Part shown: one piece after another, positions 28,269-50,299 of the stretch
Position numbering within the stretch: the first letter of the stretch is position 1
Layout of the letters: each line of letters starts with the position of its first letter
NCBI GenBank assembly: GCA_015501075.1
Contig: JADNYJ010000121.1
Location: 1-64,000 of the forward strand
Reading direction: 5' to 3'
Source of the DNA: Gymnopilus junonius
Taxonomy: Eukaryota > Basidiomycota > Agaricomycetes > Agaricales > Galerinaceae
Length of the DNA stretch: 64,000 nucleotides
Translations under genes and position numbers: made by a program
Notes under the pieces: generated by a model
Seen by the model: only the letters and a program-made list of their open reading frames with translations
Database searches by the model: none
What the model was told of the DNA's origin: nothing

Positions 28269-28788
28269 CACTGCGGGGGTTTACCAATATAGAGGGGTTT
28301 AATATTTGAGTTGACCAGGAGATTGAGCATTTCAAATACGCAAATCCATGCATAAAAATTTAGTATTTTAAATGCCCAACAATATATGCAAAATTTATCC
28401 ATTTGAAATCCTCATGACAATATCTAGGACTGAAGTAGCAGTTTGAGCCTTTCAAATGCAAATTTCCTCAGACTCGCCTTTCATATTTGAAATATGTCCG
28501 AAAAGAGATAATTATTTAGCATTTGAAACCCAGATTATTTGACCAGTGTGCCGAGTATTGCAAATCAAAGTGAACCTACGGAAATTTTCCGAATTTCAGA
28601 TACAGTGTGACATGCGGAATTTCTAAGGATGGGATTCTGTATTTCAAATGCTAAAGTTTTTAGCAGCAATCGCCCACTCATCGCCCACTCATCGCCCACT
28701 CATTGCCCGGTCAGTGCCCACAGCCACCTTGCCTGTGGGCACTTAGTTTTCAGCTGTCGCCCCTTGACTACCCATATACCACTTATAC
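28269..28788. repeat. Left terminal inverted arm of the CACTA-like element
   Basis: About 520 bp matching the reverse complement of 49710-50299. It contains about nine copies of a TTTCAAATGC/GCATTTGAAA motif and, at 28,668-28,705, a tandem TCGCCCACTCA repeat. CACTA elements bind their transposase through such subterminal repeats. Confidence 0.9.
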
Positions 28789-28861
28789 TCAACTCCTGCT
28801 CATGGACAATAGCAAGAAAAACATTCATTGATGAAAATATGTACAATTAAATAAATCCCTA

Positions 28862-31800
28862 TCACTCCATAAGAAAATCTGCCTGCAATGACTCAAGATA
28901 TGAAATGACTGCGACATTCATTTTTGCCATCAGCTTGGGCGACTGTCGATTGAACTGCATTTGATTACGCCACTGATGGCTGTTGAGAGGTACTGCATCC
29001 CCCGAAAGTATGGCATTGCAGTGGCGGATGAACCATTCCTCACATTCTTCAGTCCATGCATTGACATTGAGGCCACTGCCATTCCATATTGATGCTCGGG
29101 GCCACCAGGACATGATGGCTGTTTGGTCTAGAGCAAATTTATATGAGAAAGTGGATTAGAGACAGAACAAGATAACATACCGCTTTTCCAGTGTACACAT
29201 GGTAGGTGCCGCACATGAGATCCGAGATACTTTCTATTAGCTGATCATCCACCATATGGCGCCCGTTCTGATCTATGAAAACAGCCTGCTGTCCGTCAAG
29301 CGTGCTCTGAGATGGACCTTCAAAGACGACAAAATTTGGCAGAATCTCTCTGGCCAAACGAGCAACAATTCCTCCATAGCATAGAGCAATACAGCATTCG
29401 GGTGTGGAGAGAACAACTTCATCTCTGAGTGCCTCATACCATGCATAGTCCGCAAGATCAAACATATAATTAATATTGTAAGCACCAAGAAGAGGAGTTG
29501 AGGTTCGTGGAGGGAGGTTTCGAGGAAGAGACCTGGAAACAGGAGCGAGAGTGCGGAAAGGAATTCCATGGTCTACAAGATATTCGAGGACATCCAGTTC
29601 AGAAGGGCCCAGACATCGACGTATAATCTCCAAAGCAATCATCGGGTAAACAGCAATGTACCACAATCCTACTGCATCTTTCCGTGGGCGTAAGAGACAC
29701 TTTGGTATACCGTCAAAGTATCTGATTTCAATCCAAAAGTGGACTTCCTGGATGCATTTCAGTGCACAATTATTACCCAGGCTCAGATCCCAGTATTTCC
29801 CAGGCACATCGTGGAATGGTCGCTCAGAGGAAGAAAGTACGTGTAGAAAGTCAGCTACCAGAGGCTGTTCAGTTTCCGAGTTGGCAAGCCTATTTCCACC
29901 CATGGAATAGAGCACGGTTTTCCATGTTTTGAACCTGTGATTTCCGGTGTCTGCAAAATGGTCAGAAAGGCCAGCTTCGCGAGCCTCATCGGCCGTGTAG
30001 CCATAGCGGTAAAACATCAGTTCATCAAAGGTATCCTGTGTGGCAAGGGTTGGAATAGTTGATGCCAAAGGAGTAAGGGCAAGGACATCATCTCTCGAGG
30101 CCGTAAACAGATCCAAGTCATGATCCTCATCCTCTCTCAAAGCATCTTCAGAGTGGTGGCCATGGTCTTCCAAAGTATCTTTGGAGGTAACGATATCCTC
30201 GATGAGAGGTGCCAACTCCGACGCAGACATAGTAGGAGGTCCGTCAGCTGCAAGAAGCACAGAATCAGTACCCTTTTTGTTGATGTCTTCTCCTTGAGCC
30301 AATTTTGAAGGTGCGCCTGACATAATATCGTGCAGAATATGTTCGTCGACCTCCATATCTGAATCATGATTGAGGGCAATGGTAGTCAGAGATGGCAGAT
30401 GATCACAAGGGATTTCAATCGCAGTGCCAGGAACCGACCGAATGGAGGTTAACTCTTCGTCGGGGACTGGCTCTGCTTGACTATAAGGAGCAGAGTTCTT
30501 TGTGGCTGCTTGAGGAGCGGAAAACAGCTGGTTGGAAGGTATAAAGGGAGAAAAGTCATCAGACTCTGAGTCCGAGTCCCATTCCTTCTGATTAGACGTG
30601 AAAGTCTCTTTGTCTTCATTTGGATCGAAACTCCATTCAGAGCAGCAATCCCATTCCTTGTCGAATGAGTCAAAGAATTTCTGATCATTTGGGATGGTGG
30701 CCCATTCCTGCTCAATCTGTCCTTGGGTCATGATTGTGCGAACACGAAAACCCGAGTTGTCTGCCTTTTCCCAAGTATAAACTTTTGGTCCTCGCTTTCC
30801 CAGTGTAGGCTTATGAACTTGCTGTTTTAAGGAGTGGAGATGCTCAGCTCTCTTTGCCTGAGTCTCCTTGAGCCGCCGAAGTGCATGGTTTTCTTTGCGC
30901 CACTGAAAGAAGGCGCGCATTGTCTCTCCTGGACGCTGATGAGTATTAGGCTTTACCAGAGGAAAAGAGTCGAGGGAAACGCTAGGAAAATGAGTGGCTG
31001 GCCTTGTCAAGCTGGAAATATTCTGGCTTGCACGGAGCTGCGGAATAAGTGGTCAGGCCCATGACAATGAATTATTGAGGGTGAAAGGAGGGCGACCCCA
31101 GAATAGCCAAATCGGAATCTGGGCTTCAATCATGTGAGGCACCAATACAGCCCATGCACATGTAGTCACATCGACAATACACCCCAGGTGCTTTATATGA
31201 GGACTGACGAAGGGCTCGATGCATCGAATCCACTCTCGATGGACATTTATGCCAGCATTTTCGAAGACTGTGGCCAATGAAATATTAAAGTGTGGATTGG
31301 AAGGGTCGACCTGACAAAGGGTAATGAGAAAGGCCATGTAGCTCATGTATATGACAAAAGTGCTAATAGATTCTGTAATGGTGGTATGTGCTGCCACCTC
31401 ACTCTTGTGCACTTCAAAATATCCAAAGGACCCAGGCTTCTCGGGGACGTTCCAAAGACCTTTAGATCGGGGGCAGGTCTTGAACACATGTACAGACAAT
31501 GCATGAGCAGCAGCCCGTGATGTCTGCTCAAAATTTTTCCAAAGTTTCTGGACCTTGCGGGGAAGATGCCAGCCATATCTATCATGTTCAAGATGCATCT
31601 GGTCTATGGGGGTCCCAAACCATGATTTGAAAGGACCGATGAGGGGAGCAGCAGGTAGGAATGCCAGATATGGATATGAGGCCAGCGACCAGCGGCAGTT
31701 GCGGCACTCAGATGGCAATGACAACAGGGAGGAGTTGGAAGGAGGATGGATCTGTGGAGGAGGATTACGTGAATTGGGAGAGGTGAAATAGAGGCCAGAG

Positions 31801-31990
31801 TTAGAAAATTCGAATTCGGCGGAAAATGACCGTGCAGGCTGAGGCCAAGAAGCTATCAGAAGCACGTAGTGAGTATGGATAAAAAATGCCAAACAGTGCA
31901 CATACTCATGATGTCCAATGGTAGTGTATAGGATAGAGATCGGGCAAAGGAAAGGCCAAGAATGCCAAAGTTTTCATCACAAAACCTGCA
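28862..31990 (-). pseudogene. Large CACTA-linked protein of unknown function (broken)
   Basis: Reads outward toward the left arm. Exons on the minus strand: about 31,975-31,906 (ends LDIM), 31,852-29,181 and 29,127-28,862, with 53-nt introns at 31,905-31,853 and 29,180-29,128. The protein is about 1,000 residues: SWPQPARS, a tryptophan-rich segment (FKSWFGTPIDQ, WHLPRKVQKLWKNF), a helical hydrophobic part, an acidic disordered middle, and a conserved C-terminal half (YRYGYTADEAREAG, CCIALCYGGIVARLAREILP, SWWPRASIWNGSGLN). It resembles a widespread Agaricomycete hypothetical protein found near transposons; no enzyme motif is visible. Breaks: in-frame TGA at 31053-31055, and exon 3 joins out of phase by one base. 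The start is inferred. Confidence 0.6.
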
Positions 31991-32357
31991 AAGAAGTTCA
32001 AATCAGTGGTCGAGGAGTCCAGAAAATCTGAGTAACTGGCACCAACTTTGCCGTTACACAACATGCAAAGCTCGCCAGAAAAAGTCCACAAAATGATGAG
32101 TGAGGAGAGGTCTACTTTGCTGTTACACAACACGCAAAGCCGACAGATAGGGACTGGGTACACAACACGCGAAGCTGACAGATAGGGACCAGGAAGAGAG
32201 AAAAAAGTTGAAGGTTGACTTGTCTACTTTGCTGTTACACAACATGCAAAGCCGACAGATAGGGACTGGGTACAATGCGAAGCCGACAGATAGGGACCAG
32301 GATAGATATGACAGAGAGAAAAAAAGTCGACTTTGCCATTACACAACCTGCAAAGTC
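31973..32357. repeat. Left cluster of CTTTGC...GCAAAG palindromes
   Basis: Copies at 32047-32075, 32109-32140, 32226-32256 and 32329-32357, each CTTTGC(C/T)GTTACACAAC then TGCAAAG or CGCAAAG, plus partial copies at 31,973-31,996 and 32,160-32,178. They are interleaved with CCGACAGATAGGGAC repeats. They lie directly upstream of the minus-strand CACTA-linked gene, in the opposite orientation to the right cluster. Confidence 0.85.
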
Positions 32358-32544
32358 GATTCTGGAGAGGAGATGTAGCAACTTGAACTGCTGTCGACCG
32401 CACAGGATAACAGGGAGCAGCCAAACAATCTGCAGCCAAACAGCCTGCAGCCAAACAGGAGACCACCAAATACAGATCTGATTCCAACTCCGCATCATCG
32501 CGTCATCGCCAACAATTCTCCCTCTCCTTCCTCATTTTCAGGTG

Positions 32545-32840
32545 CCCAATTCATATGGATTGCTCCGATGAATCAGGGCCAATGCTCTATGCTTCCTCCT
32601 CTGGCTCATGTCCCAACCAAGACCCAGGATTCGTATGCAGTGCTGTGACGAATCTTGCACTCATTATTTCTGCCCTCTTTGGTCCTCTTTCACCAGCTCA
32701 TGTCTCAACCAAGACCCAGGATTTGTACGCAGTGCTGCGACGAATCTCACGGCCAATTTTCTATGCTCTTTGGTTCTCTTTCACTGGCCCATGCCTCTAC
32801 TAAGACCTAGGATTCGTACGGAGTGCTCCAATGAATCTGT
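32545..32840. repeat. Left cluster of GATTCAT...ATGAATC palindromes
   Basis: Four copies at 32545-32580, 32628-32655, 32719-32748 and 32811-32840, the last three in a roughly 92-bp tandem repeat (each preceded by CCAAGACCCAGGA or a variant). The first copy, ATTCATATGGATTGCTCC, is the reverse complement of the right-side consensus. Confidence 0.8.
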
Positions 32841-33032
32841 CAGTCATTTTCAACTCAGATATTTTCCTTGTTCCTTATACTTCTAATGCAAACTTGCATT
32901 CCTTGATGGTACGTTTTATGAGCACTCTGTAGATGTTAATGCTGGATCTAATCAGGAATATAGAATTACGCCTTCCTTCTCCTTCTCGCCTAGCCTTCCC
33001 CTTGCGGTCTGAACAGCTTTCTCGAACCCTCA

Positions 33033-36000
33033 TCACTCATCGTCATCAATCCAGATTTTCATCCAATTCAATTTCTCCTTTGAGATTTCGAAGTCGTCTT
33101 TGATGATGTGAGGCAATCCCTTGAGCCACTCTTGGTCGTATAGAATCTTTGGGAGTCCTTGGATTTCAGGATGCCTAGATTCACCAACATCTCCTCTCTG
33201 CGTCCTCCTGAGAGGCTTGGATCCCTTTTTGGAGAACAGATGTGCATCTTTCCTCTGCGCGTTGAGGATTTCCATCTCTTTTGACATTTCTTGTCTCCAT
33301 GGCATAGCATTGACACGATAAACCACCTGACCTGCGGCATCGACTTCACTTTCATCAGAGCTCATCCCACCTTCGCCAAGGAGTTCTATCACATGTAGCA
33401 ACCATTCCCAAATGAAGCGATCTTTTGCCCCCTGATCCTTCTTGATTGAGATCATCCATTGAAGTGTTTCCTTTCGCCGGGCAAATCTCTGCAATAGGCA
33501 TCTGTCGTCATTCGTTTTGCAATGCACATTCACAAGGAACTTACAGCTAGCCATCTCGTTGTGGCGCATGCCACCTTCTCTGCGTTGTCACGTTCGATGG
33601 CCATCCACTCTTCGATTTCACTTGGACATTCAACTTCACCATCCTCCTTGACTTTGGGCTGCGCCTTTCTCCAAATCCACCTTAAATGTTCCAATCGTTG
33701 AATGACGAGTTCCTGGATATAATCATTTGAGCATTCGGTCAATGATTCAAATTTATCGTCCTTGTCTTCTTCCCAGTAGTGTCTGACTACCTCAACCATG
33801 AGCTTGATGATGGCCTTATTCCAATTGCTCGTCAGTTTGTGCCACAAGTCAATATGAAGGTCCTCCAGATCTGGGCCTTTCTCATCATCATCCATAAATT
33901 CCTCAAGCTCTTCATCCTGCATTGCCACATGGCTGACGAACTCCTCATCTCTATCAAACTGGAATTTGTCTTTGAAGGTGTCATGGACCAGCTCCTGGTG
34001 TGATTAAGTATCAGCATATCCTCACCTGGCAGACGAAACTCATGCAATATAAACGTCTTTGTGACTTCATTTCGGTTGCCTTTTCTTTCATCAATTTTTC
34101 ATTCGGCTTCTTCTGCCTCTTGCAATGAGGGGTGTTATTACCACTGCTATTCCTGGGTGAAGATGACTGAGCCTGTATGGCATTCTTGAAGACTTCCCCT
34201 AACAATTTTGTCATGGTTCTCATCATGAGAGGGGCATCTAACTTCTCTTCACTACCATCACTGCTGGAGTCTTCATCCGGAGGGGTCGAGTGGTGTTTCA
34301 TTTTCTGTTTACCCTTGCCTTTTGATTTAGATGGGGTGCATATTTGCGTATCTTCGCCTCCATCAGATTTCATGGAATCATCGCCATTGTCTTCACGGTC
34401 ATTGCCCCTCGCCCATTATTGCCTCTTACTTCCGGTACCACAGCTCTTGCCACTTCTTCATCTGATGCCATATCCACATCTTCATCGCCATTTTGAACAA
34501 TATCCTTTTTACTGGCTGTCTGTTTGTCAGATCTTTTTCGACTTCTGCCTACAGAACAGATATACATTTATCAGAATCAATCAATTTATTTGTCTCATAT
34601 GAAGGACTTCACCTCGCTTTCAGAATCTGGCACTTCCTCCTCTACAGCATGAAGAAATTGCCACTGCTTATGGAAAGTGTGGTGCCTGAGGGTTTGCCAT
34701 GGTCCATTGTTCCAAGGCAAAGGTCTGACACTTCCTCGCCATGGTGTCAGCTCAGAGGCGACGTCGTCATCTCCATCTGCAGTATCACGAGGCCTTTTCC
34801 TTGCTTTGTCAGAGGATTCCTCAGCTGGCTGGCTTCTGGCATGGCTTGCATTCCGATTCGACGAGGACATGGCTGGTTGCTTAGCATCAGATTGATGGGA
34901 GGGTCCAGGGTGAGGTGCAGTGGTTTTCGATGAGGACGTGGCTGGTCCATCAGATTGACGGGAGGGGCCAGGGCGAGATTCAGCGGTTTTCGATGAGGGC
35001 ATGGCTGGTTCATCAGATTGATGGGAGGGGCTAGGATGAGGTTCAGCGGCTTTCATTCTGTTGCTAGAGGATTTTTTGGGTGTATTAACGCCTTTCTTGG
35101 TTGCAAGAGCCTGACGTATCGATAAGACCATGGCCTGAATCAACAAAAGAAATATTACCTCTTTGTCAGCGCGATACTCCCTCCGTTTTGTTCGTTGAAG
35201 CTGTGCAGCATCCTGGGCCTCTTTCTCAGCCTGCGTGAAATCATAAGTGGCAGCTCTGCAATTGTTGATTACCGTGGTCACACCTGTTGACGTTCAGCCT
35301 CTATCCCACTACCTGACCTTGCCCATTCATCCAATTCCTTTCGCAACTTCACAAGCTCCACCTCAAGATATTCATTGGCTTTCTTGCACTTGTCGAGCTC
35401 CTTTCGTGATGCTGTGGCCTCTTGCTTGAGGGTCTCGATGGTCTCATTCTGAATCTGCAGTTCCTTTTGCAGATCTGCACCCTGGGTGATAATTTTGTTC
35501 TTCGTGTCAACTTCTTCCAGTTTAGCAATTTGTCCTTCGAGGCTCGGTAAAACTTCTTCTTCCAGTTGAGCAATCTGTGCTTCGAGGCTCTGTAAAGAAG
35601 GTGAGGACAATGGATGACAGGTGATGATGAAATGCTAACGTGTATTTTCTCTGTGTTGTCCTCTTCTCTAGACCTCATTTCTTCCTGAAGTGTAAAATTG
35701 TGGTCCTGGATGGATTGTGCCGATTCCTTTTGGGTGTGAACGACGCAGCAAAATATACATTAAATCTGATGACCTACCACCTTCAAGTGCTCCACCTTTT
35801 TATCAAAGGACGACTTTGTTCATTGAAGTTCCTCTTCAAGCTCCTACGTAAGTTGAATTTAGTCGATTCTTCTGAAGCACCGAATAACTTACTGTCTTTT
35901 CAGCATCCCACACTCTTTGTCCCTCTTCAGCGGCCTTCCGCATGTCTTCCACCTTCTGCTTCAGCTTCTCGATATTCTGCTGGAGGCTCTTTTTGCCATC

Positions 36001-36960
36001 GCCCAAACTTGTTATCTCGGCATCCTTAACTTCCAACGTTGTTATCACTACCTCCAGATCCTTCGCATTGTTCTGCAATTCCTCCTTGAGAACAGCCTTT
36101 TCAGTTATCACTGCCTGCAGATCCTTCTCTCTGTTCTGCAATTCCTCCTTGAGAGCAGCCTTTTCTTGTTGGAGACCTCTGATAATGCTGTCGGTGAACT
36201 GGCTGTACAAAGCGGAGTGCTCCCTGTACTCCTTGATGACTCTCCCTTCTGCTGACGCTGCCAGTCAGTTTGCTTTCTGGATAGGAATCCAGTTCATTGC
36301 CTCGGACATAAAGGGCTTCTTTGACTCAGATGCCTCTGATTTTCTCTTCTTACTACTTCGCTCTGCCTGAATCTGCTCATCGTTGTCCCGATTTGCTGAT
36401 CTTTTTGCCTCGGTTGACGAGCTGCTGCTTGCGGAGGTGTCCAGATTCTCTGCCCAGTTCGGGTTCGGCATTTGGAAAGCAACAGATTGATGTGGTGCTT
36501 CAACAGGCTTTGTCAAGTCCCCCCAGTTTGGCGTCATTGATTCCCCCCAAGGCTGGTGAAAGGCGCCAGGAGTGAATTGAAAATGAATCTGCTCATGGTC
36601 TCATTGGATGGTTTCCTCTGGCAATGAACGAGTCTCAGTGCGAGGAGTGCTCATGCCATCTGAGCTGGGTTTATTGGAGGCGGACTGGGCAGAGTCAGTC
36701 TCCCACTGGGCTTGCAGTTCATCAGAGGGGCTAGGCAAGAATAACGGTGTGCGCTGCCGTGAATTAAGGGTGTATTGTTGCGTAAGAGTCTCCTCCTCAT
36801 CGGCCATGTACTGTGATCGCCGATCGGGATGAGGGGATGTCTCCGACTCATTGGCACTGTGATACTGAGATCGCCCGTCATCATCGTCCATTTCCTCATC
36901 GACATCCGCGGGTGCTGCAGTCAAAGAGGCGCCACTATTAACGGTGCTCTGATTCTCCAT
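33033..36960 (-). pseudogene. Coiled-coil protein of an abundant Agaricomycete hypothetical family (broken)
   Basis: Start ATG 36960 (MENQSTVNSGASLTAAP), chosen because sequence above it looks like leader. The layout is an acidic disordered N-terminus, a basic patch (RSSKKRKSEAS, possible nuclear signal), a long coiled coil (about 36,240-35,290), a Pro/Ser tandem repeat region (34,870-35,050; units like HPSPSHQSDEPAM), a second acidic/basic region, and the conserved C-terminal block. That block has DDLW-like acidic helices (EKGPDLEDLHIDLWHKL), WRKAQPKV, then EGGMSSDESE, VNAMPWRQEM and GLPKILYDQEWL. Two in-frame TGA codons (36601-36603, 36265-36267) interrupt otherwise continuous sequence. Frame changes occur near 34,590, 34,410 (a GGGG run) and 33,540. 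Function unknown. Confidence 0.55.
34865..35055. repeat. Tandem repeat of about 63-72 bp inside the coiled-coil gene
   Basis: Three diverged units, each containing CATCAGATTGA(C/T)GGGAGGG and GTTTTCGATGAGG or a close variant. In the protein they give Ser/Pro/His repeats. Confidence 0.7.
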
Positions 36961-38522
36961 AACTTTGGAAAATGGTGGAGAGATATCAAGTGAGAAAATG
37001 AGTGCCTTTCTTTGGGGACCGAGGTGCACTCGACTTTGCCATTTGCCATAAAAGGTAAGCCACATGTCGGTATAAATACCATTGATGCATGAAAGGGCGT
37101 TTCTTTTACAGATTTCCCTCTTATCTTCGGGTTCCACTCTGTTATCCACCACCATCTGGTCTTTCTAGCATGCCTAATACCTGCCTTTTCGTCGAATACA
37201 CCCCCCAGGCCAGTGCTCATCATCCAGCTTTTCATCCCACCCTGACACTGTCACTTTCAGGCTATTGAAGGCAGAGTCCGAGCTCGTCTTTATTCCCGAA
37301 ATTTCCCCAGGCCCTGCATGGTACACATTGCAATGAGGCAGCCAGATCGCCGCCGCTGCCAAGCGCGATATGCATTTGCTGAAAACGTCTTAGGCTTTCA
37401 GCAATTACAGCCATTTGTCCATAATTGCCTTGTTACCATTAAAGAAGGACGACATTTCTACAAGTTCATGGTCTTTTTCAAGTGGCACCATCTCTTGCCA
37501 CCAAACCCATGCCTCCAGAATTTAATGATGGGTGTTCCAGTCTTGCGATCCGATGTTGTGGTAATGAGTGTCGGGATAAACGCTGCATATGTCAACATGA
37601 AAGGGCGCAATGCTACACTTGCAGACTGGCTGATAAAATGGTGCACTCTGGAAGTTTTGTATCAAATAACTTAACTAACATATCCTTGCCTAGCTTTGCA
37701 CGTAACGCTCACCTTAGACGCAAGCACGTCCCGGTGAAACTGTACTATCAAAAGTAGACTTAACTGTTTGTATTCTGTATACACCATGTAAAACATTGTA
37801 TCCTTTCTCTCTTGAATGCTGCATCGGCAATACGAGGACCATATTGAACTAAGTAGAGGCTTGAATTGCTTGGTGGACTTGAGATGCTTAAACCTTGGCT
37901 GCAGGATGAGGGATGTATGGGTAAGGTACAAAATGCATACCTATAGAATGAGAAAGAATGTAGCTATCTAACCATGTAATTTTTGAGAGTCTCTCAGGGG
38001 TAATAAGTATACTTGGTGATGATATTTTGCAAGTGATGAAGTTGAGAATGTCGGGCCTGGTTACCGAGTTTACCGACCTGCTAAATATGACCAAGCTCCA
38101 AAGATTGCTGCAAAGACTGCATTTTCAGACATTTACCTAAGCTCCAAAATATTGATAATTGCATTCTAGCTGCTCATAGCTTTAGTACAAATGTTTGATC
38201 TCGATCGTAGGTGCAGCGATAGTCACTTTATAGGATAAAAACAAACATCCAAAGATTTTGCTCAGTTTTGATGTGACCAAGGGGTCTGATTGAAACGAGT
38301 CCCGTAATCGGGTCCAGGTAAATTTAGGGATGTTTTTGTACTTTAGTTACCTGGCAGAGTCCAGTTTGAGGTGCTAAAAATCAGTTTACATTGCTAGGAT
38401 TATGCTACATACAACAGGTTAGGTACGTCTAAGCTATGGACATAAGAACTAGTAAAAGCTACAATAAGTCTAATCTATCTATGAGACTAGAGGCCAAGAA
38501 AAGAATTTTGAACATTTCAAAT
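36961..38522. other. Core region without a supported gene
   Basis: Short frames only. 37,318-37,674 (+) is open but its composition is not convincing. The mid-point of the mirrored palindrome architecture (about 38.2 kb) falls here. Confidence 0.35.
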
Positions 38523-39407
38523 TTAACCTGATGCTTTGGCCTTCCCTTTTGCGATCATCGCCTTTCCAACCTTAGCAAGCTTTTCATTTTTCTTATGACG
38601 AGCGCACCCGAAGTATACTTGAGGTCGAGGCGGATCAAGTCAATGACCGGCCAGGAATCAGCATAATCTTGGAGTACCAGGAACTTCTGGCAAGCCTGAT
38701 CATGAAGAGATTGTCAGCGATGAAATATAGATGAAGTAGTAGGACTTACTAAGGTTCGAACATTGACAAGTCCAGTGAGCGACTGGGATGAGAAGTTCTT
38801 TGTTGGATCAAGGTGCTCCTCCACAAGCTTCTTCACATAAGTCTAGAATAACAGGTGAAGACTAAACGATATGGTAGTGCATTAAATAAATCTGAACATA
38901 CTTTAATGGACTGATACTTCTTCGCCTCCCAGCCAAGTGCTTGCTCGAGGTTGTATCCTCCATGACCATGTCTTCCTGCTTCGCCGTCTGGTTTGGGATC
39001 AGCCCACTGGTGTCATGATCAATTGCACGGGCCTCTTCATCTTCCTCATCTGAATCCAGACCCTCCAGACTTGAGTCTGACGATAAGTCTGACTCAAGAT
39101 CTTTCTGTTCTACCTCCATCTTCGCATGCTGGGATGTGGATGTATTCTTGAAGGGCGACGGAGCTGGCTTTTGATGGGACAGAGGAGTAATCTCCCTGGA
39201 AGGTGTCTTGTACGGACTGAAGCGAACATGATTGGTTTGTGAGCGTCGAAGAGATGCTGGCACAGAGCCTGGGCCTAGTTCTTCCTGTGCCAGGAGCCTC
39301 GGTGATGGATAGGCTTTGCCGATCTCTGTTTGGGCAAGGAGATTTGGTGCTGTAGGTGGAGGAGTATATGGCTCAAAAAAAGGGGAAATATCCTTGAAAG
39401 ATGGCAT
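38523..39407 (-). CDS. Unrecognised protein with disordered N-terminus and helical C-terminus
   Basis: ATG 39407 opens MPSFKDISPFFEPYTPPP; then comes a Pro/Ser-rich disordered region and an acidic stretch (LSSDSSLEGLDSDEEDEEAR). A frame change or unseen intron near 39,000 leads to the conserved-looking helical part (NLEQALGWEAKKYQSIKTY), a 53-nt intron (38,901-38,844), KLVEEHLDPTKNF, a second intron (about 38,750-38,697) and CQKFLVLQDYADSWPVIDLI. The end is a Lys-rich tail (RHKKNEKLAKVGKAM) that again needs a one-base frame change, stopping at 38523-38525. I do not recognise the family. It may be decayed. Confidence 0.4.
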
Positions 39408-39462
39408 TGTTGAGACAAATGAATGTTGAGGGAAAACTAGTGACAGCCCGCGTTAAGATAGT

Positions 39463-39734
39463 CAAGGACGAATTGATAGGTTTGACAATGAATGAGGGTG
39501 GCATGAGTGATGGATGTGTGCTCATCAGATGTGCAAGGGAATGTCAGAGACCACTAAGTGGCTGAGGCGGACCTGCGCTGGGAAAATGAACCAAGGATGA
39601 ATTGATAGGTTGGATACTGGTGGCACGAATAATGAATGAGGGTGGCACGAATGGTGGACGCGTGCTCGTCAGACGTGCAAAGGAATGTTGTAGGCCACTA
39701 AGTGGCTGAGGCGGACCTGCGCTGGGAAAATGAA
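39463..39734. repeat. Tandem duplication of about 130 bp
   Basis: Copies at about 39463-39588 and 39593-39734 share AATTGATAGGTT at the start and CACTAAGTGGCTGAGGCGGA...GCGCTGGGAAAATGAA at the end, near identical. It lies between the divergent starts of the unrecognised gene (39407, -) and the WD40 gene (39952, +), so it may be a duplicated promoter segment. Confidence 0.85.
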
Positions 39735-39951
39735 TGTGTGATAGCAGAGACGGCTGCCTGAGGCGACGTTGAACCTGCAAGAGTGATGATAGTATGAAGG
39801 AAAGATATGAGATGCGAAGAGAGAGAGGAGCACATGCTGCTTTATGAATGGGGAATGTCACGAGGCCATGGCATGGCCTTGAACATGGCTGTGTTATTAT
39901 ATATACCGAACAGGGGCCCGTGGTATCAAAGGGTGCCACTCATCCCTCGAT

Positions 39952-41494
39952 ATGTTCACCTCCATCCTGGCATTATTTGACAGGTGTTCTCATCTGATCG
40001 CAACCCTTCATGGACACACTGGCCCAGTGGTTAGCTTAGCCATATTGCCAAACGGAAAATTCTTGGCGAGCGGAGGTGGGCGATAATATATACCCATCTG
40101 ATATCAACTCACACAATCCATCAAGGAGCCGAAGGGATCAAGATATGGAGTCTCGGGACAGCGAAAGAGATTCCAGTTGGAGAACAGCCATTCTATAAAC
40201 GAAGCCAAGTGGCCTGCATCTGCTGGATCATGTGTAGAAATGAGGTTACAGACATGCTGTGTTATGGAAATGCCCTGGGCTGTCTAGTCTTTCTGCAATA
40301 TCATGCAAATGAAGTGATTGCCTTTGTTCAGATCTCTATCAAGCCTCTGATCTTAATGCGATATTCAGGACCGGTTTGAAACCATATTTTCGGCACATCT
40401 TGCCAGAGGAGCAGAAATCACATCCATAGCAGTTGATATGTCAAGAGGCTCAACGAGGATTGCCACTGGGACACGGGACCGGTGCGTGCAGGCCTGGACC
40501 TTCGACTCCGGTTCCAGAAAGCTTGTGTCGGTCTTTTCGAAGGAGAACAAGGGTGAAATAGAGATGGTGCCAAAGGCCTTGGCTTTTGACACCAATGAAG
40601 AGCGCGACTTGTTCATCTTTGGGCTTTACGATGGTGGCCTGTAAGTTTCCTGACCAAATATAATGTGCTATGCATCTGATCACGATTAGATACAAGAACG
40701 GGGGGAAAGATGGCCGGAATATTTCAAAGCATCAGCTGGGTTCACAAGTGTGAGGCCTTGAACTCTGCCAAGTATTTGAGAAATTGCTGACCCCAACATT
40801 AGAGGCAATGCAGCTGTGGATATGGATCGTAGAATTTGCATAGTAGATAACATCCAAAACGGCTTTGATCTCTACAAGATGGAAACCGGACTCTTCATCA
40901 AAACTTTCATCACAAAGGATGCTGTCAAAACACATCCAAAAGGCATTGCATTTGGAGATAAATCGCGTTTGGTCATAGGGGGGAGCGATCATGGCCATGT
41001 TTACATTTTTGACAGGAAGACGGGACGCATTCTCAAGAGCTTGAGGCATGCAAAACGGGGTGGTGCGGAAACCCTTGCAGTAAGCTCTCAGTCAATGTTT
41101 CATCACAGTCGAGGAAATTAATTCGGCCTTATAGGTACATGACATGGAAAATGGGAACGTGCTGATTGCCACCGCATCTGCGACATCCTCATCTGGGCCA
41201 GGGAACATATTGGTATGGCAATGGAAATCGGAAGACAAGCGCGGACTTGCTAGTGAAGGGTGGACGCTGCTGAAAGTGATAGATGTCCTCTTCAAGGTAG
41301 TTGTTCTCCTAGCAGCAGCAGCATACTTCGTACAACAGGGCCAGCAGATGGCAGCAAATATGGCCAGAAGGACAGACGATAGCAACTCAGAAATGATGGT
41401 CGAGCATGTACATCAAGTGGACAACCGAGGAGTAAGAAGGGTAGTGGACCATCTGCAGAAGATGAGTGATGTGGGCAAGGTGATTGATGGCTAA
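39952..41494 (+). CDS. WD40-repeat protein with C-terminal membrane segment (apparently intact cargo)
   Basis: WD40 proteins form beta-propellers for protein contacts. Exons that keep one frame: 39952-40075, 40126-40325, 40369-40640, 40690-40749, about 40801-41081 and about 41135-41494. It starts MFTSILALFDRCSHLIATLHG. The first blade is clear (HGHTGPVVSLAILPNGKFLA, then EGIKIWSL), followed by blades with RGSTRIATGTRDRCVQAWTF, GIAFGDKSRLVIGGSDHGHV and NVLIATASATSSSG...ILVWQW. Near the end VIDVLFKVVVLLAAAAYF is a single membrane span, then a charged tail. Intron 2 uses the rare donor GTTCAG. No stop or frameshift is seen, unlike every other large gene between the CACTA arms. Confidence 0.7.
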
Positions 41495-41805
41495 AGAGGG
41501 TTGTAAGTACGGGGAACATGCATAATGGAAATGATGCAGGCAAGACGTTGCCTGACTTGTTAGTGGATGCGCATGCACACCACGGGCAGGAGGTGAATAG
41601 GGAAATACGCATCGTCCGTAACTTGTAAGTTGGGCAAAGTAGATACCGAATAGATATTGAACTGGATAGTGAGGTATAGATTAGGCTACGTAAGTTGTTG
41701 AGATGTGAAAAAGGCTTACAGAATACTATCGGAACATGGTCTGGCATCACCAGAAAAACCTACGAGATCTGAAAGCTTGCGCAGACCTCAAAAAAACGAA
41801 CACTG

Positions 41806-44003
41806 GCAGGTGGATTCATCAACATGCTTTCACCACCTCCGCAGCTTAGATTCATGGGAGAAATCCAAATGAATCCAAGGCCTCGATTCAGCGGAGCACT
41901 CCTGCTGAACCAAGGGAGAGAAGTGCCAGTATGCAAAGGGACCTGAGGGGAGAGATAGAAGAAAGAAAATTCAGTTGGGTGGGTCACATGTCACGTGATT
42001 CAGAGATATGGGGACAATCACATTTTACAATGCTGAACGGTAACAACGACAATGAGAGACTTCGGAATAGACGCAAAAGCGCCTTGACCTGCACGCACTA
42101 CTTTTTAGTAGGAGAAACCAGCAGCTCGAAGTCAAAACTTACAAGAAAATCCAAATTTACAGATATGCGCAGATATTTGCATTTTACACTGCCGAACAGT
42201 GGCTACATCTGTCACAGCTTCAAGAACAACGGAGGAGATAAGTGACCTGCTTATTGTGCTTTTGAGAGGGAGAAATAAGCAGCTTGAATAGGGCACTTAC
42301 AATAAAATTCCAATTCAATCTACGGTGAGAGCATCATGTGACTAACATCTTAAACCCACGAGGAAATTACATTTTACAAAGCTGAAGGACGATGACGCGT
42401 GGTGGGCTTCAGATCAACGGAGAGCAGGTCTGAGTTCTCCTCCTCCAGCGTATCAACCACACGTTCCTCGGTCATTGTTGAGAGTGGGCCTGTCGAAGTT
42501 GGAGGTAGCAGTGTCATTGATAACAGAGGCTCGTCAGCAGTGGGGTTGTTCAAAGCTTGACAATTAGAACTTAGTAATGAGGGTGCAGATTGTCAGGAAG
42601 AGACAGGAGATTCATCGGCGCAATCCAGATGAATCCGGGAGATGAGGTAGCAAGGCCGTCCTCAGGGTTGGGTTGAGTGGGCGACGACGTTGCGGGCACA
42701 CTGTTAGAATTCAGGGAGATGAGGTAAGTAGGCTGACTAGGCCGTCCTCCGAACACTATGTTATTGGTGGAAGATGTCGGGATTGGGTTGAGTGGGCAAC
42801 GACATGGCGGGGACACTGTTAGCATTCAGTTAAACACTGCTGCTCCATAAGGTAATCCAGGCAGTTAGTGGGTCAAGATGAAACCTTCAAATCAAAGGGT
42901 TGAGGCTGAATTGAGAAGCTCGATGTCCCACTGATGACTGGATCCTGGGGATGAAGGAGTAACAAACATTGAGAGGGTAGGATGTGTGTGCAGAATCCAC
43001 GCCGCTCCGAACAATGTAGTTCATAGAAATTTGAAGTAGTCACGTCTTTCGAGGCTGGGTGATATGCAAAAGAGTTGAAGTGAGCCAAGACAGGAGGAAA
43101 AAGGTTCATTGGAGCAATCCAAATGAACCTGAGCAATGAGGTGACAAGGTTGTCCTCTAAACTTTATTGCTGGCGAATATTGCAAAGAGACGACCAAGTC
43201 CACGCGGCTCCGAACAACACAGCTCATACGAATTTGAAGCAGTCGATGTAGGCGATGACGTCGAAATGGTGTATATGGGCGATCATCTCCTCCCACTTTA
43301 GACCCTCTATGGTAGGATAACCGCGTGGCGGCGGGGTGCATAAGGTGTTGGCATCCGGGGGGGGACAGGTGCAGCTGGGTCCTGGATTTCGGCGGAGGAG
43401 GTAGCATGACCGGGGCTGTCAGTGCAGTGGCCCTAACATACTCCGCTATCGCTTCCTCGGCGTTAGAGGCGGTGGCGACAATGGTGGTCATAGAGGGGAG
43501 TCCAGCAGGGGCGGCGGCGATGCTGTGGACAATGACTGTTTCCTCCACGACGGGGGCGCTAAGCTGCATCATCTGGAACTGGGCTGGAGTGGGGTGAGGA
43601 GCATGTCTAAACACTTTATGACCTGTCTGACCTTGTACAGCGTCTATTTCCATTCCATCCTCTGAGTTCGCAGCCGCCTCGTCAGGCTGTGCGCCATTGG
43701 CAGTGGTCAGGACAGCAGCAGGTGCAGGCAGGGTCTTCGTGGCAGCCGGGGCGAAGGATGGTTGCGGGAAGAGTTTGCGGTCAGGCACCGATTTGCCTTT
43801 CTCCTGCGTGGAGGTGAGGAGGGTAGCAGGTCCAGCAGCAGGGGTCGACTTCGGCGCAAGAAATTCTGGGTTTGTCTCCAGGCAGCGTGGAGAGAGAACA
43901 TTGCGGGAAGGGTTGGTGTCCAGTCAGAATTCACTGTAACAGTAAAGATGAATAGAGGAAAGTTACGACTCCAGATTCATCGGAGCAATCCATATGAATC
44001 TGG
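41806..44003. repeat. Right cluster of GATTCAT...ATGAATC palindromes and local duplications
   Basis: Palindromes at 41847-41881, 41881-41914, 42606-42640, 43087-43120 and 43973-44003. The consensus is GATTCATCGGAGCAATCC followed by ATGAATC. Between them are direct duplications: 42,640-42,715 resembles 42,720-42,830 (GTTGAGTGGGC...CACTGTTAG), and 42,995-43,035 resembles 43,196-43,240 (CCACGC(C/G)GCTCCGAACAA). Mirror image of 32,545-32,840. Confidence 0.8.
43300..43900 (-). CDS. Ala/Pro-rich fragment, unrecognised
   Basis: A minus frame open from about 43,925 to 43,300 with Ala, Pro and Thr-rich sequence (APAATKTLPAPAAVLTTANG) and a short ordered-looking part (NAEEAIAEYVRATALTAPVM). Below about 43,360 the frame runs into palindromic repeats and is not coding-like. 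No ATG is favoured. Possibly the remnant of another cargo gene. Confidence 0.3.
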
Positions 44004-44182: not shown

Positions 44183-44556
44183 AGGCTTTGCGTGTTGTGC
44201 AACTGCAAAGTCTGCCTGCATCTCGATCTCTCACACCCCGCGCCATATACGGTATCTCTCTGCTTAGGTTTTGCATGTTGTGAAATGGCAAAACCTCTCT
44301 ACTTCGCTATCTGCTGCGGCCCTCTCTGGTTTCTCCTCGATCTCTCACACCCCACCCTATACGGCATACCTCTACTCAGGTTTTGCATGTTGTGAAACAG
44401 CAAAACTTGTCTACTTAACTATCTGCTGCGGCCCTCTCTGGTTTCTCTCTGATCTGGTTTTGCTCGTTGTGCAATGGCAAAAGCTGTCCTAGTTACTTGA
44501 TTCTACATAACGTGGTCTGCCCTCAGGCTTTGCTTGTTGTGTGACGGCAAAGTCTG
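44183..44556. repeat. Right cluster of CTTTGC...GCAAAG palindromes
   Basis: Five copies at 44183-44213, 44262-44293, 44377-44409, 44455-44486 and 44524-44556, consensus GG(C/T)TTTGC.TGTTGTG then GCAAA(G/A). They are the reverse complement of the left cluster, interleaved with CTATCTGCTGCGGCCCTCTC repeats, and sit directly upstream of the transposase gene. Confidence 0.88.
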
Positions 44557-44720
44557 CATTTTCTTGCCTTCTCTGAAGGACTATTCATCAAAGCCAGAAT
44601 TCTGTGCGCGATTATCGATATTGGTCTACTCTCTAATATCTACTGATTATAACTCTGGTCTGTCATCTCTTTCTCCATTCCGTTGATATTGAATGATTCA
44701 ATTTTTGGCTAGCTATATAT

Positions 44721-47700
44721 ATGCCATCGCGTGGTGGAACATACGAATGCCTTTGCAGGCTTTGTACCGAGGGATCTGCTCCTGGTCCCGATGGCAAACC
44801 CAGAGGCAAAGTCCTCCCCCTATCACAGAAAGCAGCACATTTGGCCCGTCTCACCGCTTCCAATGAAGCGCTCAGGCAGGCAGCTGTAGTCGATGCCCGA
44901 CTGAGGCCTTCAAATCACTTTCGCTCATTGATAACACTCACATCCCAATGTCATCCATCAGTGGTACACCTGCGCGTTCAACACAACAAGCCAGGTCTGT
45001 TTCTCTCATTCGCCCTCCGAAGAGTGAGCGTAGCAAGTATACCAAAACGGCGCATGCCATATTGGATGTAGTTGATCAACGCATAAAGGCTTGCGCGGCC
45101 AAGCTCAATGAGTCTCCCTCAGTTGAGACCCTGGACTTTGCTGGAGATGAAGCTATTCACCTTCAGGTCTTATTCAATAACGTGAAGCATTCCGTGGGAT
45201 CCATAACAGCTCGAAAAGATGGCATTGGGCCGAGCTCTCGAAGCTTCATGAGCGAGTCAGCAAATTACGAGAGCTGCATCCCGACGAAGAGAAAACTTTA
45301 GAATATGACTCCAGTAAGTCACTATACTCCTTGGGCACTTTGACAAAAATTAATCCTTACCCCGTAGGTGACCACTTTAATTTCACAGTCGATAGCTACC
45401 ACCCTCTAGCTCAGATTGCAATGTTCATCGTCATTGTCGGATTCGTGATGATGAGTTTGAGTCGGCGTATGAGCGAGCTCCTCCTTGGACTCTTGTCAAT
45501 TTCGGTCACTTGGTCCTTTAACAGTGGGCCTAAAGATCTGAAATCACTGTCTGAGTACATTCTCAAGCAAATACCTCGAACTCTGGAGACTGTGTTGATG
45601 AAGTTCGCACTGGATGGTAAAACGACTATCTTCGCGGTCTGTCCAAAGTGTCATTACACCTATGCCCCTACATTTCCTCCAGGTTCAGATGAGCCTGTGT
45701 ATCCTGAATGCTGCAGCAATCATCCTTTTCCTGATTCCGATGTATGCAATGCAAAATTGCTGTCTGGGAAAGTGCCACTCAAGACTTTTGTCTATCCCCA
45801 TTTTCATGACTATGTGGCAGGCCTGCTCTCACGCAGCAATTTGGAGAATATGATAGACCGCTCTTGCGATGATGTGATGGATTCACTGAGGAATGGAGAA
45901 ACTATACACCAAGTGTCTGATGTGTTTGACGCCAAATTCATCCGTGATTTCAAAGGCCCAGATACCACACATCTTTTTGTCGACAGGCCGATACTGAGGC
46001 ACGCCTTCTTTTTGCTTTCAATTTTGACTTCTTCGCTGTTGAAGGGATGAAAGTGAGGGGTGCTTCTGCCTCCTGCGGAATTCTCAGTGCAGCATGTTTG
46101 AATCTTCCTCTCAGCATCCGATATAAGCCAGAATATATGTACATTTGCATTATTCCGGGTCCTGATGAGCCTCACTTGACAGAGGTCAATCATTACATAC
46201 GCCCATTCATTGACGACCTTCTCATTTCATGGGAAAGAGGTGTTTGGTATTCACAGACAGCGAACTATCCTCAAGGGAGAATGACCGCAGTGCTGCAATA
46301 TTGGGTGTTTGTGACCTTCCAGCTGCGCGAAAAGTCAGCCAGTTGGCAGGGCATTCTAGTAACCACTATTGTTCAAGATGTCGCTGTTTTGATCAGTCCA
46401 CCGTAAACAGGACTGACATTGATTCCTACGACTGGCTTCCAAAGGATCGTAAGGACGTTCTTGAATGTGCTGAAGAATGGAAACAGGCAGCTTCAGCGAA
46501 GGATCAGGAGAAGCTATTTAAAGCTTACGGTGTTCGCTGGTCAGAGCTATGGCATCTTCCATACTGGGAACCCAGTCGTACACTCGCTGTTGATGTGATG
46601 CATTGCGGATTTGAAGGTTGTGTGCAGCATCATTTCCGGGATGTTCTGGGTCTCACTCAAGCCAAGGCTGAGGAAAAGGCTGAAATTGCGACATCTTTTG
46701 AGTATGACTTCAAAATGCCCGATAAGGCCTATATAACTAAGGAGAAGCTGGATCAGGAAGACTTGAAAGATATTGCTGCCATCCATAAACTGCTTGTCTC
46801 TCCACGGCAAGCTTTGGAAGGTGATGACGATATTGAGGAGAACCTTGGGCGTCTGACTACTTCCCTCTCATGCAGAAGGTGGAAAGCCCTTGCCTTTGTC
46901 TCTGACAGTGTTGGTGCTAGGCCAGCTGTTCCACCAAGATTCACTAGCAAGCGTTATACAAAAGACCATTATGCAGGAGGACTTACGAATTGGGTATGTT
47001 TTTTATTGCCAGCTTTGGTTCCAAATCTGAATTGTGTCCCTCAGCGTCGTTCTTTTCCACTTCTTCCATGCTCCGAGTCTACTGTCTCAAAATTTGCCAC
47101 TGTTCAAGTCATGAATCGTATCAGAGACGTTATACGAGATACTGATACTCCATCCTGGATATCCTCTGTCCCCTACAATTTTGGGCATGCAGCAGCTGGT
47201 TCCCTGAAAGCAGATGAATGGCGTACAATGGCTATTGTTTACCTTCCGATTGCTCTTGTGAGTATGTGGGGAGAAGGAACAACACACGCAACACCACCTA
47301 TTGCCTCTTCCTTCCGTGAAGTCTTGGATCATACAATGGATTTGGTTTCTGCCATGTCTCTTGTGGGTATGCGTACCATGACAGAGCGCCGCATGTCTGC
47401 ATATCATCGCTATATTACTTCCTGGGTCAGAAGGCTCCCGGAACTTCATCCTGGTATTAGGGGACGTGTCAACAACCACATGGCTATTCATATATATGAC
47501 TTCCTCCATCTGTTTGGTCCAGTCCGTTCTTGGTGGTGTTTCCCATTTGAGCACCTAGTGGGTCAATTACAGCGTATTCCTACTAACCACAAGTTCGGTA
47601 TGTAAAAGATATTACCTTGATAATTTCAGAGCTAATTATTAGAGCAGGTGAACTGGAAAATACCATGTTGACGTCCTTCAATCGAACTGGAAAGCTCAAG

Positions 47701-48300
47701 CGATGGCTTATCCATCCGGAGCGCCCTTCAATCATAAAAGAATGTGAGGCAATATTTGACAAGGCTTTTGGATTAGGTTTGGAAGATGCACTTGACGATG
47801 ATCTGTTTTTCACAAACACTTTCAATCCGACTCCTGCAAGTTTGAGAAAGCTTCTACCTGATCGCAAAATAGGCCTTCGAGCATGTCATTGTTACGATGG
47901 AACTATATTTGCACGGGCCAGTACCCATGTTGGAAACAGTCTTGTTCTTTATTTCCCTGACGGTGACCACTCAAGTCCCGCTATACCAGCATCCATTGAA
48001 TATATTGTCATGCGGGAGACCCTCAAAATAGTCTATGTTGTTCGTCGGCAGCTTACAGCTGCACCTGGGATTATAGATCCCTTCTGCTTTTATCCTGATT
48101 TCCCTGCCAAGATTTATTCTCCAAAACTCTCTGACACTCTGGAGGTTATTGAGCCAGAATGGATTATGTCTCACTATGCTCGCTGGAAACTGGATAATGA
48201 CAGAACAGTTGTTTTGACACTTTCACGGGTGCGTACTTCTAAGTTCTCTTAAGATTTATTCCATTTTCTCAAATTTCAATCTACACTTTGATAGGATTGA
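44721..48300 (+). pseudogene. CACTA (Tnp2-like) transposase, multiply frameshifted
   Basis: Would cut and rejoin the CACTA element. ATG 44721 (MPSRGGTYECLCRLC) gives an N-terminal Cys cluster. A coiled coil (SKLHERVSKLRELHPDEE) precedes an intron at 45315-45367. Next comes a zinc-binding segment (VCPKCHYTYAP then YPECC), the FDFFAVEG Asp block, LNLPLSIRYKPEY, GPDEPHLTEVNHYIRPF, CDLPAARK, the Asp of VDVMHCGFEGCVQHHF, and LKADEWRTMAIVYLPIAL. Late introns: 46994-47044, about 47599-47630 and 48229-48294; the last exon is only GAT TGA (48295-48300), giving the ending LSRD. The readable protein changes frame near 44,905, 45,220, 45,990 and 46,285, so it is inactive unless the assembly is wrong. It reads toward the right arm. 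Confidence 0.75.
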
Positions 48301-48798
48301 GTACCTAGTATATCCTTGTATTTCTTCGAATATCATGTTTCTTTGTGACAAATGCAAGTGGGTCAACTGGTCACTTCTCAAGTAAAAGAAAAAGGCGAAG
48401 TACTCGTCTATAAAAGATAAAATGTAACAGATGAACTACTGTGTGCCACAGCACGCACCGGGCAAGTCACGGTCACTACTGAGCCGGTCCCCGGAGCGCC
48501 ACTACTGGGCCAAAACGCATTTGCAGAAGACCTCCACCACGCAGCGTCCTCCTCTCCCTCCTCCTCTCTATCAAGCAACGAAAATGACGGCCAAACAGGG
48601 AGATGACAAGGCAAAACCCAGTTAATGGGAGGCTCGCTGAGGTACGTCAAGAAGGCAGCGTCGCGATGACAGTCATTATCGCGATGCTGCCCTCATTTAA
48701 ATCTCTACGTTCATTCGTTGAAACTGATATATCGTACTACAGATCTTTTGCTGGGGCCCCCAGAAAACGTCGCTATGGCGCTTTTGTGCCCGTACCAC
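48301..48798. other. Spacer between transposase and palindrome array
   Basis: No gene. Holds the transposase 3' region and then GC-rich sequence leading into the palindromes. Confidence 0.4.
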
Positions 48799-49490
48799 CT
48801 CCCTCGCTTGCAAACGCGAGTCGGAGGTGGTACTTTCTTTATCCTCGCCCACCGACGCCTCACCCGCCTCCCTTCTTTTCCAATGCAGGGAGCGGGTGCT
48901 CTTCTCGCATCGGACTTCGCCTACGCCCCTCTTTCCACCCCCCTCTCTCTGGGAGTCAATATGGAGGCAGCGCTCTCTTACCCCACACCACCCGCCATCT
49001 CCTCTCCATCGCATGCAAAAGCGAAATGGAGTTGCTTCCTTTGACGCCGCCACCATCTCTTTCCCTCCTCCCTCGTACAGTGCGAGCCGGAGGCAGTGAC
49101 TATTACCCGCCACCACCCTGCTTCCTTCCACCTCTCTCGTGCAAGCATGACTTGGGGTTCTGTTTCTCCCCACCCAGTCCCCCCTCCCTTGCTTGCAAAT
49201 GCGAGACAGAGGTGGTTTTCTCCTCGTCTTAGGCCACCCCTATGCCATCGTCCCTCCACCTCCCTCGTATAACCACGAGACGGAGGTGGAAACCGTTTTT
49301 GTCTTCTGCTGCCGTCACCATCCCTACCGTCGTACCTCCCTCTTGTAGACAAGAGTCGGAGGCCCTCATATCTGCCGCCTTCCCCTTCCCCCTCCCTTCC
49401 TCTCTCGCAGCATGCGCTGGACGCAAGGACCTGTGGGTTTGCACAGCTGCTGCCGCTCGCGACCCACCTCTCGTGCCAATGCGAGGCGGT
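48799..49490. repeat. GC-rich palindrome array inside the right CACTA arm
   Basis: About seven to nine imperfect 33-35-bp palindromes, consensus CACCTCCCTCGCTTGCAA then CGCGAGTCGGAGGTGG. They lie at 48799-48836, 49068-49094, 49129-49160, 49182-49216, 49253-49291, 49335-49365 and 49466-49490, spaced 50-130 bp. Related units occur at 27.2-28.2 kb outside the left arm. Overlapping open frames on both strands follow the repeat and are not annotated. Confidence 0.75.
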
Positions 49491-49709
49491 TCATTCTTCG
49501 TCACACTGCCATTGTCGCCTTCGCCGCTTCAAGCTCCTTTCCACTGGGTAGTGATTTTCTATTATCTATTCTTTTACTTGTATTTTATAATTTTAGCTCA
49601 ATAAAATGATTTACTCCAAATTTCAAGGAACCCGAAAACTGGAGAGCAACTAAGGATGTCTGAGAGCACTGACAACTGAGATCTAAGTGACCTTGCCTGT
49701 GGGCACGGT

Positions 49710-50299
49710 GTAAGTGGCATATGTGTAGTCAAGGGGTGACAGCTGAAAATTAAGTGCCCACAGGCAAGGTGGCTGCGGGCACTGACCGGGCAACAAGTGG
49801 GCAACGAGTGGGCGATGAGCGGGCGATTGCTGCTAAAAACTTTAGCATTTGAAATACAGAATCCTATCCTTAGAAATTCCGCATGTCACACTGTATTTGA
49901 AATTCAGAAAATTTCCGTAGGTTCACTTTGATTTGAAATACTCGGCACACTGGTCAAATAATCTGGGTTTCAAATGCTAAATAATTATCTCTTTTCGGAC
50001 GTATTTCAAATACTCGGCACACTGGCCAAATAATCTGGGTTTCAAATCCTAAATAATTATCTCTCTTCGGACGTATTTCAAATATGAAAGGCGAGTCTGA
50101 GGAAATTTGCATTTGAAATGCTCAAACTGCTACTTCAGTCCTAGATATTGTCACGAGGATTTCAAATGGATAAATTTTGCATATATTGTTGGGCATTTAA
50201 AATACTAAATTTTTATGCATGGATTTGCGTATTTGAAATGCTCAATCTCCTGGTCAACTCAAATATTAAACCCCTCTATATTGGTAAACCCCCGCAGTG
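49710..50299. repeat. Right terminal inverted arm of the CACTA-like element
   Basis: Reverse complement of 28269-28788, ending CCCCCGCAGTG at 50299. It is longer than the left arm because a segment of about 73 bp is tandemly duplicated (about 49,925-49,998 and 49,999-50,071; both contain CTCGGCACACTGG and TAATCTGGGTTTCAAAT). Confidence 0.9.

Follow-up and report, generated by a model that had tools for sequence, protein, structure and literature searches.

According to PMC2613891, CACTA transposons of the En/Spm kind depend on a transposase together with a single DNA-binding protein, and Tam1 and the soybean element Tgmt* measure 17 kb and 20.5 kb; large size alone is not new among CACTA elements. 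In the red alga Chondrus crispus, EnSpm families reach 16-20 kb and have 4-5 open reading frames (ORFs), as cited in PMC6431247. In fungi, Tnp2-type elements of mushrooms were noted in 2006 (PMC1636069), EnSpm elements were described with CAC..GTG ends, 3-bp duplications and in some cases a TET/JBP gene (Kojima 2025, PMC12730594), and CNIRT6 of Cryptococcus, which begins with CACTG, was reported to measure about 7.5 kb, with a single long gene and inverted repeats of 24 bp (PMC12810828). Eight Starships have been reported in the basidiomycete Tremella fuciformis (PMC13066641). Among the titles and beginnings of abstracts listed in our literature search, none describes a lineage of fungal CACTA elements in which a WD40 gene accompanies other core genes; Repbase, subscription journals and supplements lie outside this scope, and such elements may already be in a repeat library. 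Here, we analysed the first 64,000 nt of contig C26 of Gymnopilus junonius (JADNYJ010000121.1), in the following called the window, and searched the assembly of 58.0 Mb in 898 contigs for relatives of the interval 28269-50299. We conclude with high confidence that this interval holds a 22-kb fungal EnSpm/CACTA DNA transposon from a lineage with a conserved multi-gene core.

The first-pass annotation of the interval had described arms that mirror each other over more than 500 bp, and we could confirm this. Positions 28269-28565 pair with 50003-50299 (297 nt, 97%) and 28484-28788 with 49708-50012 (305 nt, 95%), the ends match, and the element reads CACTGCGGGGGTTTACCAAT inward from either end. 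The terminal features are:

28269-28860, plus strand: left terminal arm, starting with CACTGCGGGGG; the inverted-repeat part is 28269-28788, and the arm has subterminal ATTTGAAAT motifs
49708-50299, minus strand: right terminal arm, which mirrors the left arm and has a 72-bp tandem duplication
28266-28268, no strand: left flanking triplet ATG, unlike the right flank
50300-50302, no strand: right flanking triplet TAC, identical to the left flank of a copy on contig C45

The 72-bp tandem duplication is found in the right arm and in the left arm of the C45 copy, and the left arm of the window is without it. In the 58 Mb, the terminal pattern CACNNCGGGRGTTTAC has exactly 12 occurrences without mismatch, and all of them are ends either of the window element and its close copies (family A) or of a sister family (family B); the arms and their termini are therefore not a chance observation. 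Allowing one mismatch added 12 matches, compared to 33 for the pattern read backwards as a control, hence these additional matches carry no meaning. All 12 ends, from both families, have the 5'-CAC..GTG-3' form of EnSpm/CACTA elements. A reiterated subterminal motif, another hallmark of this group, is present in the arms of family A as ATTTGAAAT, with 4 and 8 copies in the two arms, 1 in the 20.8-kb interior and 1 in the 42 kb of flanks. Within 287 bp of the outer right arm, TTTGAAA occurs 5 times (2,000 shuffles: mean 0.11, maximum 2). In crowding in the arms, ATTTGAAAT is reminiscent of the sites to which the second protein of CACTA elements binds, in maize TnpA (PMC2613891).

A search of the assembly with the arm sequence, as proposed in the first-pass annotation, revealed two further left arms, at C45:91145 and C478:6540, which both start at the identical base of CACTGCGGGGG and continue into a collinear interior, while the flanks of the three copies are mutually unrelated. 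The outcomes named there as adverse, i.e. no further copy, solo arms or unrelated pairings, did not occur. The C45 copy is collinear with window positions 28269-43340 over 15 kb, with 14,783 of 15,063 aligned bases identical (98.1%), until its contig ends; relative to the window it has insertions of 72, 90, 3 and 1,132 bases and 17 one-base gaps. The C478 copy is collinear with 28269-34447 over about 6 kb at 96-97% identity, and likewise runs to a contig end. From the collinearity of C45 we conclude that the interval is mobile as one block, over at least the stretch between its left end and 43 kb. Two further proposals yielded less. An empty site was found from neither flank (best 40 of 145 and best 40 of 90 candidates scored): the 1.45 kb to the left of the element have no other copy and a high-copy repeat lies further out, and on the right side high-copy repeats start 13 bp outside the element end; an allelic locus was likewise not seen among the candidates scored. 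No compact copy with two genes was identified, a look that did not extend to 16 transposase-only loci.

Between the arms, we distinguish the following genes and motifs, for which the models come from a simple splice finder and are rough, with several terminal exons probably wrong:

28865-31973, minus strand: G1, large gene adjoining the left arm; its main ORF is 29142-31052, with 31056-31973 and 28865-29155 as additional ORFs; approximate exon borders
33036-37164, minus strand: G2, multi-exon gene; conserved C-terminal part 33036-34003; exon borders approximate
37396-37638, plus strand: G3, short frame that is conserved at 64% identity in family B and may belong to a small gene
38571-39452, minus strand: G4, small gene conserved in family B
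40035-41491, plus strand: G5, WD40 beta-propeller gene; a hydrophobic helix close to the C-terminus is conserved
44693-48252, plus strand: G7, EnSpm/CACTA-type transposase with the motif set and a counterpart in family B
46020-46046 (D), 46310-46324 (D), 46370-46390 (C(2)C), 47477-47500 (H(3)H) and 47540-47557 (E), plus strand: transposase motifs, in this order

It had been noted before that a transposase adjoins the right arm and a large gene of unknown kind the left one, and both statements hold, as G1 has no convincing Pfam match. The same applies to G3 and G4. A PDB sequence search with part of G1 gave no match up to E 1, and single-sequence structure predictions of two G1 pieces reached a mean predicted local distance difference test score (pLDDT) of 40.7 and 36.4. 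The middle of G2 probably forms a coiled coil, as suggested by weak matches to coiled-coil families in Pfam, none of them at cut-off. ORFs at 42571-43923 have no counterpart in family B.

Propeller models match the WD40 gene with E values down to 3e-12 in family B (PF00400: 31.8 bits, cut-off 27), and no propeller model reaches its own cut-off with the family A protein. The hydrophobic helix follows the propeller in both families. Sec12/PREB proteins consist of a propeller plus a C-terminal membrane helix, and an origin of the WD40 gene from such a protein was considered. In PDB sequence searches the WD40 protein matched Tako8, WDR5 and other propellers, which reflects the general fold, and no Sec12/PREB name was among the 54 sequences at E ≤0.01 or the 51 at E ≤0.001.

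The sister family was recognised by its transposase region, which is matched on C113, C288, C148 and C546 at 70-71% DNA identity. On these four contigs right ends with CACATCGGGAGTTTAC lie at the expected place, and left ends with CACACCGGGAGTTTAC were found on C682, C169, C92 and C29, with G1 beside each. Family B has the same genes in the same order as the window, at 26-82% protein identity. Contig C113 alone holds nearly the whole interior (transposase, WD40 gene, G4, G3, G2 and the start of G1), collinear with the window across about 20 kb. The ends of family B share just 69 bp at 88%, thus the long arms are peculiar to family A.

Since the duplication of 3 bp at the target is a further hallmark of EnSpm/CACTA elements, the triplets outside the ends were compared. 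Those before the left ends of family B are GGA, TGA, AGA and TTA, those after the right ends AGA, TGA, TTA and TGA. Three of the four left ends thus have an exact right partner at k=3 and none at k=4 to 8; random genomic triplets paired as well in 13 of 20,000 trials. The 3-bp duplication is accordingly found in family B, where we infer it from triplet pairs that sit on different contigs, while the window copy does not show it. The left triplets of family A are ATG (window), TAC (C45) and CGG (C478), and the sole right flank is TAC.

With respect to the transposase, the motifs D, D, C(2)C, H(3)H and E follow each other in this order in the window and in C113, which corresponds to the DDE triad with C(2)C and H(3-4)H between the second D and E that characterises EnSpm/CACTA; the catalytic residues were assigned from motifs, not from structure. 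Judged from motifs, termini and 3-bp target duplications, the element is a member of EnSpm/CACTA. A PDB sequence search with the transposase exon gave no match up to E 1. Other assignments were tried and rejected. A Plavaka element would end in TGT..ACA or CATCA..TGATG, which the ends here do not, and PF18759 reached E 0.035 and 13.7 bits (cut-off 26.3) with a window piece. The KDZ model PF18758 is unmatched by the transposase of the element. Among 21 family A and B protein queries to Pfam there was no tyrosine recombinase captain as in Starships, with small ORFs only partly scanned.

Are the additional genes passengers or part of the element? Own-genome protein searches with WD40, transposase, G1 and G2 queries, of which all counts are lower bounds, gave many matches besides families A and B, at roughly 26-53% identity and clustered. 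One match per locus entered the clustering (24 of 38 for WD40, 38 of 70 for the transposase, 34 of 43 for G1 and 19 of 29 for G2), the others being further exons or pieces of loci already counted. At least 65 clusters resulted, 29 of which hold two or more of the four genes, and 22 of these 29 lie outside families A and B. All four genes are present at six loci, namely the window, C77, C114, C270, C61 and C893 (five outside A and B), and the first four of these share order and orientation: G1 minus, G2 minus, WD40 plus, transposase plus. Outside the 11 contigs with family A or B, 14 of 20 WD40 matches lie within 20 kb of G1 (0.47 expected with uniform placement in 58 Mb, as assumed throughout), 13 of 20 within 20 kb of the transposase (0.52 expected), and 7 of 12 G2 matches within 20 kb of G1 (0.28 expected). 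The shared gene order in family B and the clustering in diverged relatives indicate that the extra genes are an old conserved core. Another order (G1 minus, WD40 plus, transposase minus) was seen in the diverged relatives on C61, C893, C87 and C145; G2, where found (C61 and C893), lies beyond the transposase.

A giant CACTA element that recently captured ordinary host genes would be large, as is this one, and the WD40 gene looks host-like; moreover, 2 of the 20 WD40 matches outside families A and B (C56 and C142) stand in clusters without a further core gene. Recent capture is nevertheless very improbable in our view, because family B agrees with the window in genes and gene order although dS is high or saturated (synonymous divergence; dN, non-synonymous divergence), and because the core clusters in far more diverged relatives, with 14 of 20 WD40 matches near G1. 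Hence, from the earlier idea of a giant cargo-carrying CACTA transposon we retain the element of about 22 kb, supported by copies with the same left boundary, and drop the host-like cargo, as the same genes recur in family B, and two or more of the four core genes at 22 diverged loci.

Comparing the window with C113, we obtained dN 0.217 and dS 1.85 for the transposase (829 codons), dN 0.31 and dS 2.04 for G3 (80 codons), and dS beyond estimation for the WD40 gene (dN 0.207, 336 codons), the N-terminal 268 codons of G1 (dN 0.37), G2 (dN 0.48, 622 codons) and G4 (dN 0.30, 92 codons). At the sequence level, protein change is thus slow relative to silent change in all six genes, and the WD40 gene is as conserved as the transposase. 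Between the window and C45, dN/dS over 2,100 codons excluding the transposase is 0.51 (WD40 0.20, G4 0.25, G2 0.58, G1 0.60; G3 has two changes and no dS), which indicates that recent copies are partly decaying. In the first 6 kb, private changes from C to T or G to A at CpG make up 76 of 92 in the window, 22 of 55 in C45 and 38 of 74 in C478. Over 28269-43340, the differences are mostly CpG losses and strongly one-sided (window 175, C45 47, other 58), a pattern that methylated DNA would show and that suggests copies methylated to different degrees.

Several observations weigh against our conclusion of an EnSpm/CACTA element with a conserved core. It is based on one genome. Family A is represented by three left ends and one right end, and the assembly holds no complete second copy, as C45 and C478 both run off contig ends; the eight ends of family B lie on eight different contigs, none of which has both. 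No target duplication is seen at the window copy (left ...ATG, right TAC...), and GGA, one of the four left triplets of family B, lacks an exact partner. The ATTTGAAAT motif is weak in family B, with 2 copies in 703 bp of a right end. The segments used for dN and dS between the window and C113 are those that tblastn could find, which favours conserved parts. Clusters with one kind of gene account for 36 of the 65, including 16 with the transposase only outside families A and B; either some relatives are without the core or the search missed core genes. The reading frame of the window transposase shifts near 45231, 46285 and 47603-47629, where that of C113 is continuous, so that the window copy, as assembled, does not look intact; frame breaks also occur in the copies on C288, C148 and C546. 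Finally, PF02992 (Tnp2) has no match to the main exon of the window transposase and reaches E 1.4e-6 and 28.1 bits, just under the cut-off of 28.6, in family B. The latter result, together with the weak Plavaka match of the window piece and the long arms of family A, would also suit a separate superfamily within the wider CMC group, distinct from EnSpm proper and with the multi-gene core as its defining feature. We regard such a superfamily as unlikely, since CAC..GTG ends and 3-bp duplications match the fungal EnSpm elements as described in PMC12730594, and the Plavaka ends given there differ.

The absent target duplication had been raised before as a weakness of the view that the window copy is a single insertion. 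It was rightly raised, and is best read as the ends of two insertions. For the window copy only, chances seem evenly balanced that it is a composite, in which the left end to about 43.2 kb is one insertion and the right end stems from the C45 insertion; the join may have arisen in the assembly, within a repeat, or when copies recombined. The triplet at the right end, TAC, pairs with the left end of C45, and not with the left end of the window (ATG) or of C478 (CGG), and a chance match to one of three left flanks has a probability of about 5% (3/64, equal base frequencies). A composite would also be consistent with the excess of left over right ends and the scattering of family B ends noted above. 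C45 stops inside the element, and its last 156 bases, after the final difference at 43184, are identical to the window. The scan of CpG losses shows no copy switch from 28.3 to 43.2 kb, hence any join would lie between 43184 and 50299. Two independent CACTA insertions of opposite orientation that enclose host genes by chance would equally leave no target duplication, yet this is hardly credible: at C45 an identical end is followed by 15 kb of the same interior at another place, and all 12 ends have element genes on their inner side (family A copies by DNA, family B right ends by the transposase and left ends by G1).

What, then, does a cut-and-paste element gain from such a complex? This question is raised by a lineage with four or more genes in fixed company, among them a beta-propeller as conserved as the transposase. 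The transposase would excise the element at CAC..GTG and insert it at another place. One more protein of the element, G1 or G2, may bind the ATTTGAAAT repeats of the arms, in the role of TnpA in maize En/Spm, and the WD40 propeller with its C-terminal hydrophobic helix might be a scaffold by which the complex is tethered to a host factor or to a membrane. Accordingly, we see in the additional genes probable parts of the element's own machinery or of a defence against silencing, and not passengers. We lean, with modest confidence, towards the hypothesis that this fungal EnSpm lineage grew from an element with one or two genes into a multi-protein machine with at least four co-inherited genes (those for G1, G2, a membrane-anchored WD40 propeller and the transposase), held through deep divergence in at least two gene orders, in which WD40 and G1 or G2 are needed for transposition or escape from silencing. 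A defined gene set is herewith offered for testing, and genes that look 'host-like' in annotated mushroom genomes may belong to an element where they lie between transposon ends.

Other repeats were observed in and around the element. The 1,130-bp insertion of C45 at window position 38347 has the ends CATCAG..CTGATG and a TA duplication, and fits the description of PlavakaB in PMC12730594. Local repeats lie between G1 and G2 (32110-32359 and 32601-32850), where C45 has 90 additional bases and C478 seemingly further units. A motif near TTTGCAAGCGAGGG occurs three times in the left flank (27723-28188, plus strand) and three times inverted near the right arm (48814-49199, minus strand), and nowhere else in the window with up to 2 mismatches. 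A repeat some 715 bp long (50313-51027), whose inverted ends measure 28 bp, starts 13 bp outside the right end and is followed by more repeats; it is present at approximately 30 or more places of the genome (best 40 of 90 candidates scored). To the left, a high-copy repeat at 25500-26815 has long matches at 89-98% identity at about 30 places at least (best 40 of 145 scored). A KDZ transposase (PF18758, E 1e-31) with a CxC2 cysteine cluster (E 9e-25) at 18261-18917 and 19271-19816 on the minus strand is probably a second DNA transposon in the window, and a Copia-type gag domain (E 3e-30) lies at 11033-11722, also on the minus strand. The KDZ transposase with its CxC2 cluster, like the structure of the genes, points to a fungal origin of the DNA.

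The cargo of Starships varies between copies. Starships (PMC13066641) and the element described here are both giant fungal elements with many genes; the former have a tyrosine recombinase captain, whereas we found a DDE transposase and genes that stay the same from copy to copy. Mushrooms also have Plavaka and KDZ elements, which are likewise fungal DNA transposons, some with an extra TET/JBP gene; the ends of PlavakaA (TGT..ACA) and PlavakaB (CATCA..TGATG) and the 8-bp duplications of Zisupton, as described in PMC12730594, do not agree with the present element. Sizes of 17-20 kb are known from the plant CACTA elements (En/Spm, Tam1 and Tgmt*), with which the lineage has in common the 3-bp duplication and subterminal repeats, in plants bound by a second protein (PMC2613891). 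In contrast, Tgmt* has 13-bp ends and one complex gene that gives rise to the transposase and a presumed binding protein, and the accessible part of that report mentions no WD40 gene for the plant elements. The Chondrus crispus EnSpm families, as cited in PMC6431247, are similarly large and have ORFs beyond the usual one or two, but belong to another lineage and are likened here by size and ORF number only. Closest are the fungal EnSpm elements (PMC12730594, PMC12810828), with which the element shares CAC..GTG ends, 3-bp duplications (Kojima) and a DDE transposase with C(2)C and H motifs; it differs from CNIRT6 among them in its length of 22 kb, its arms of 500-590 bp and its conserved reading frames, of which there are six or more.

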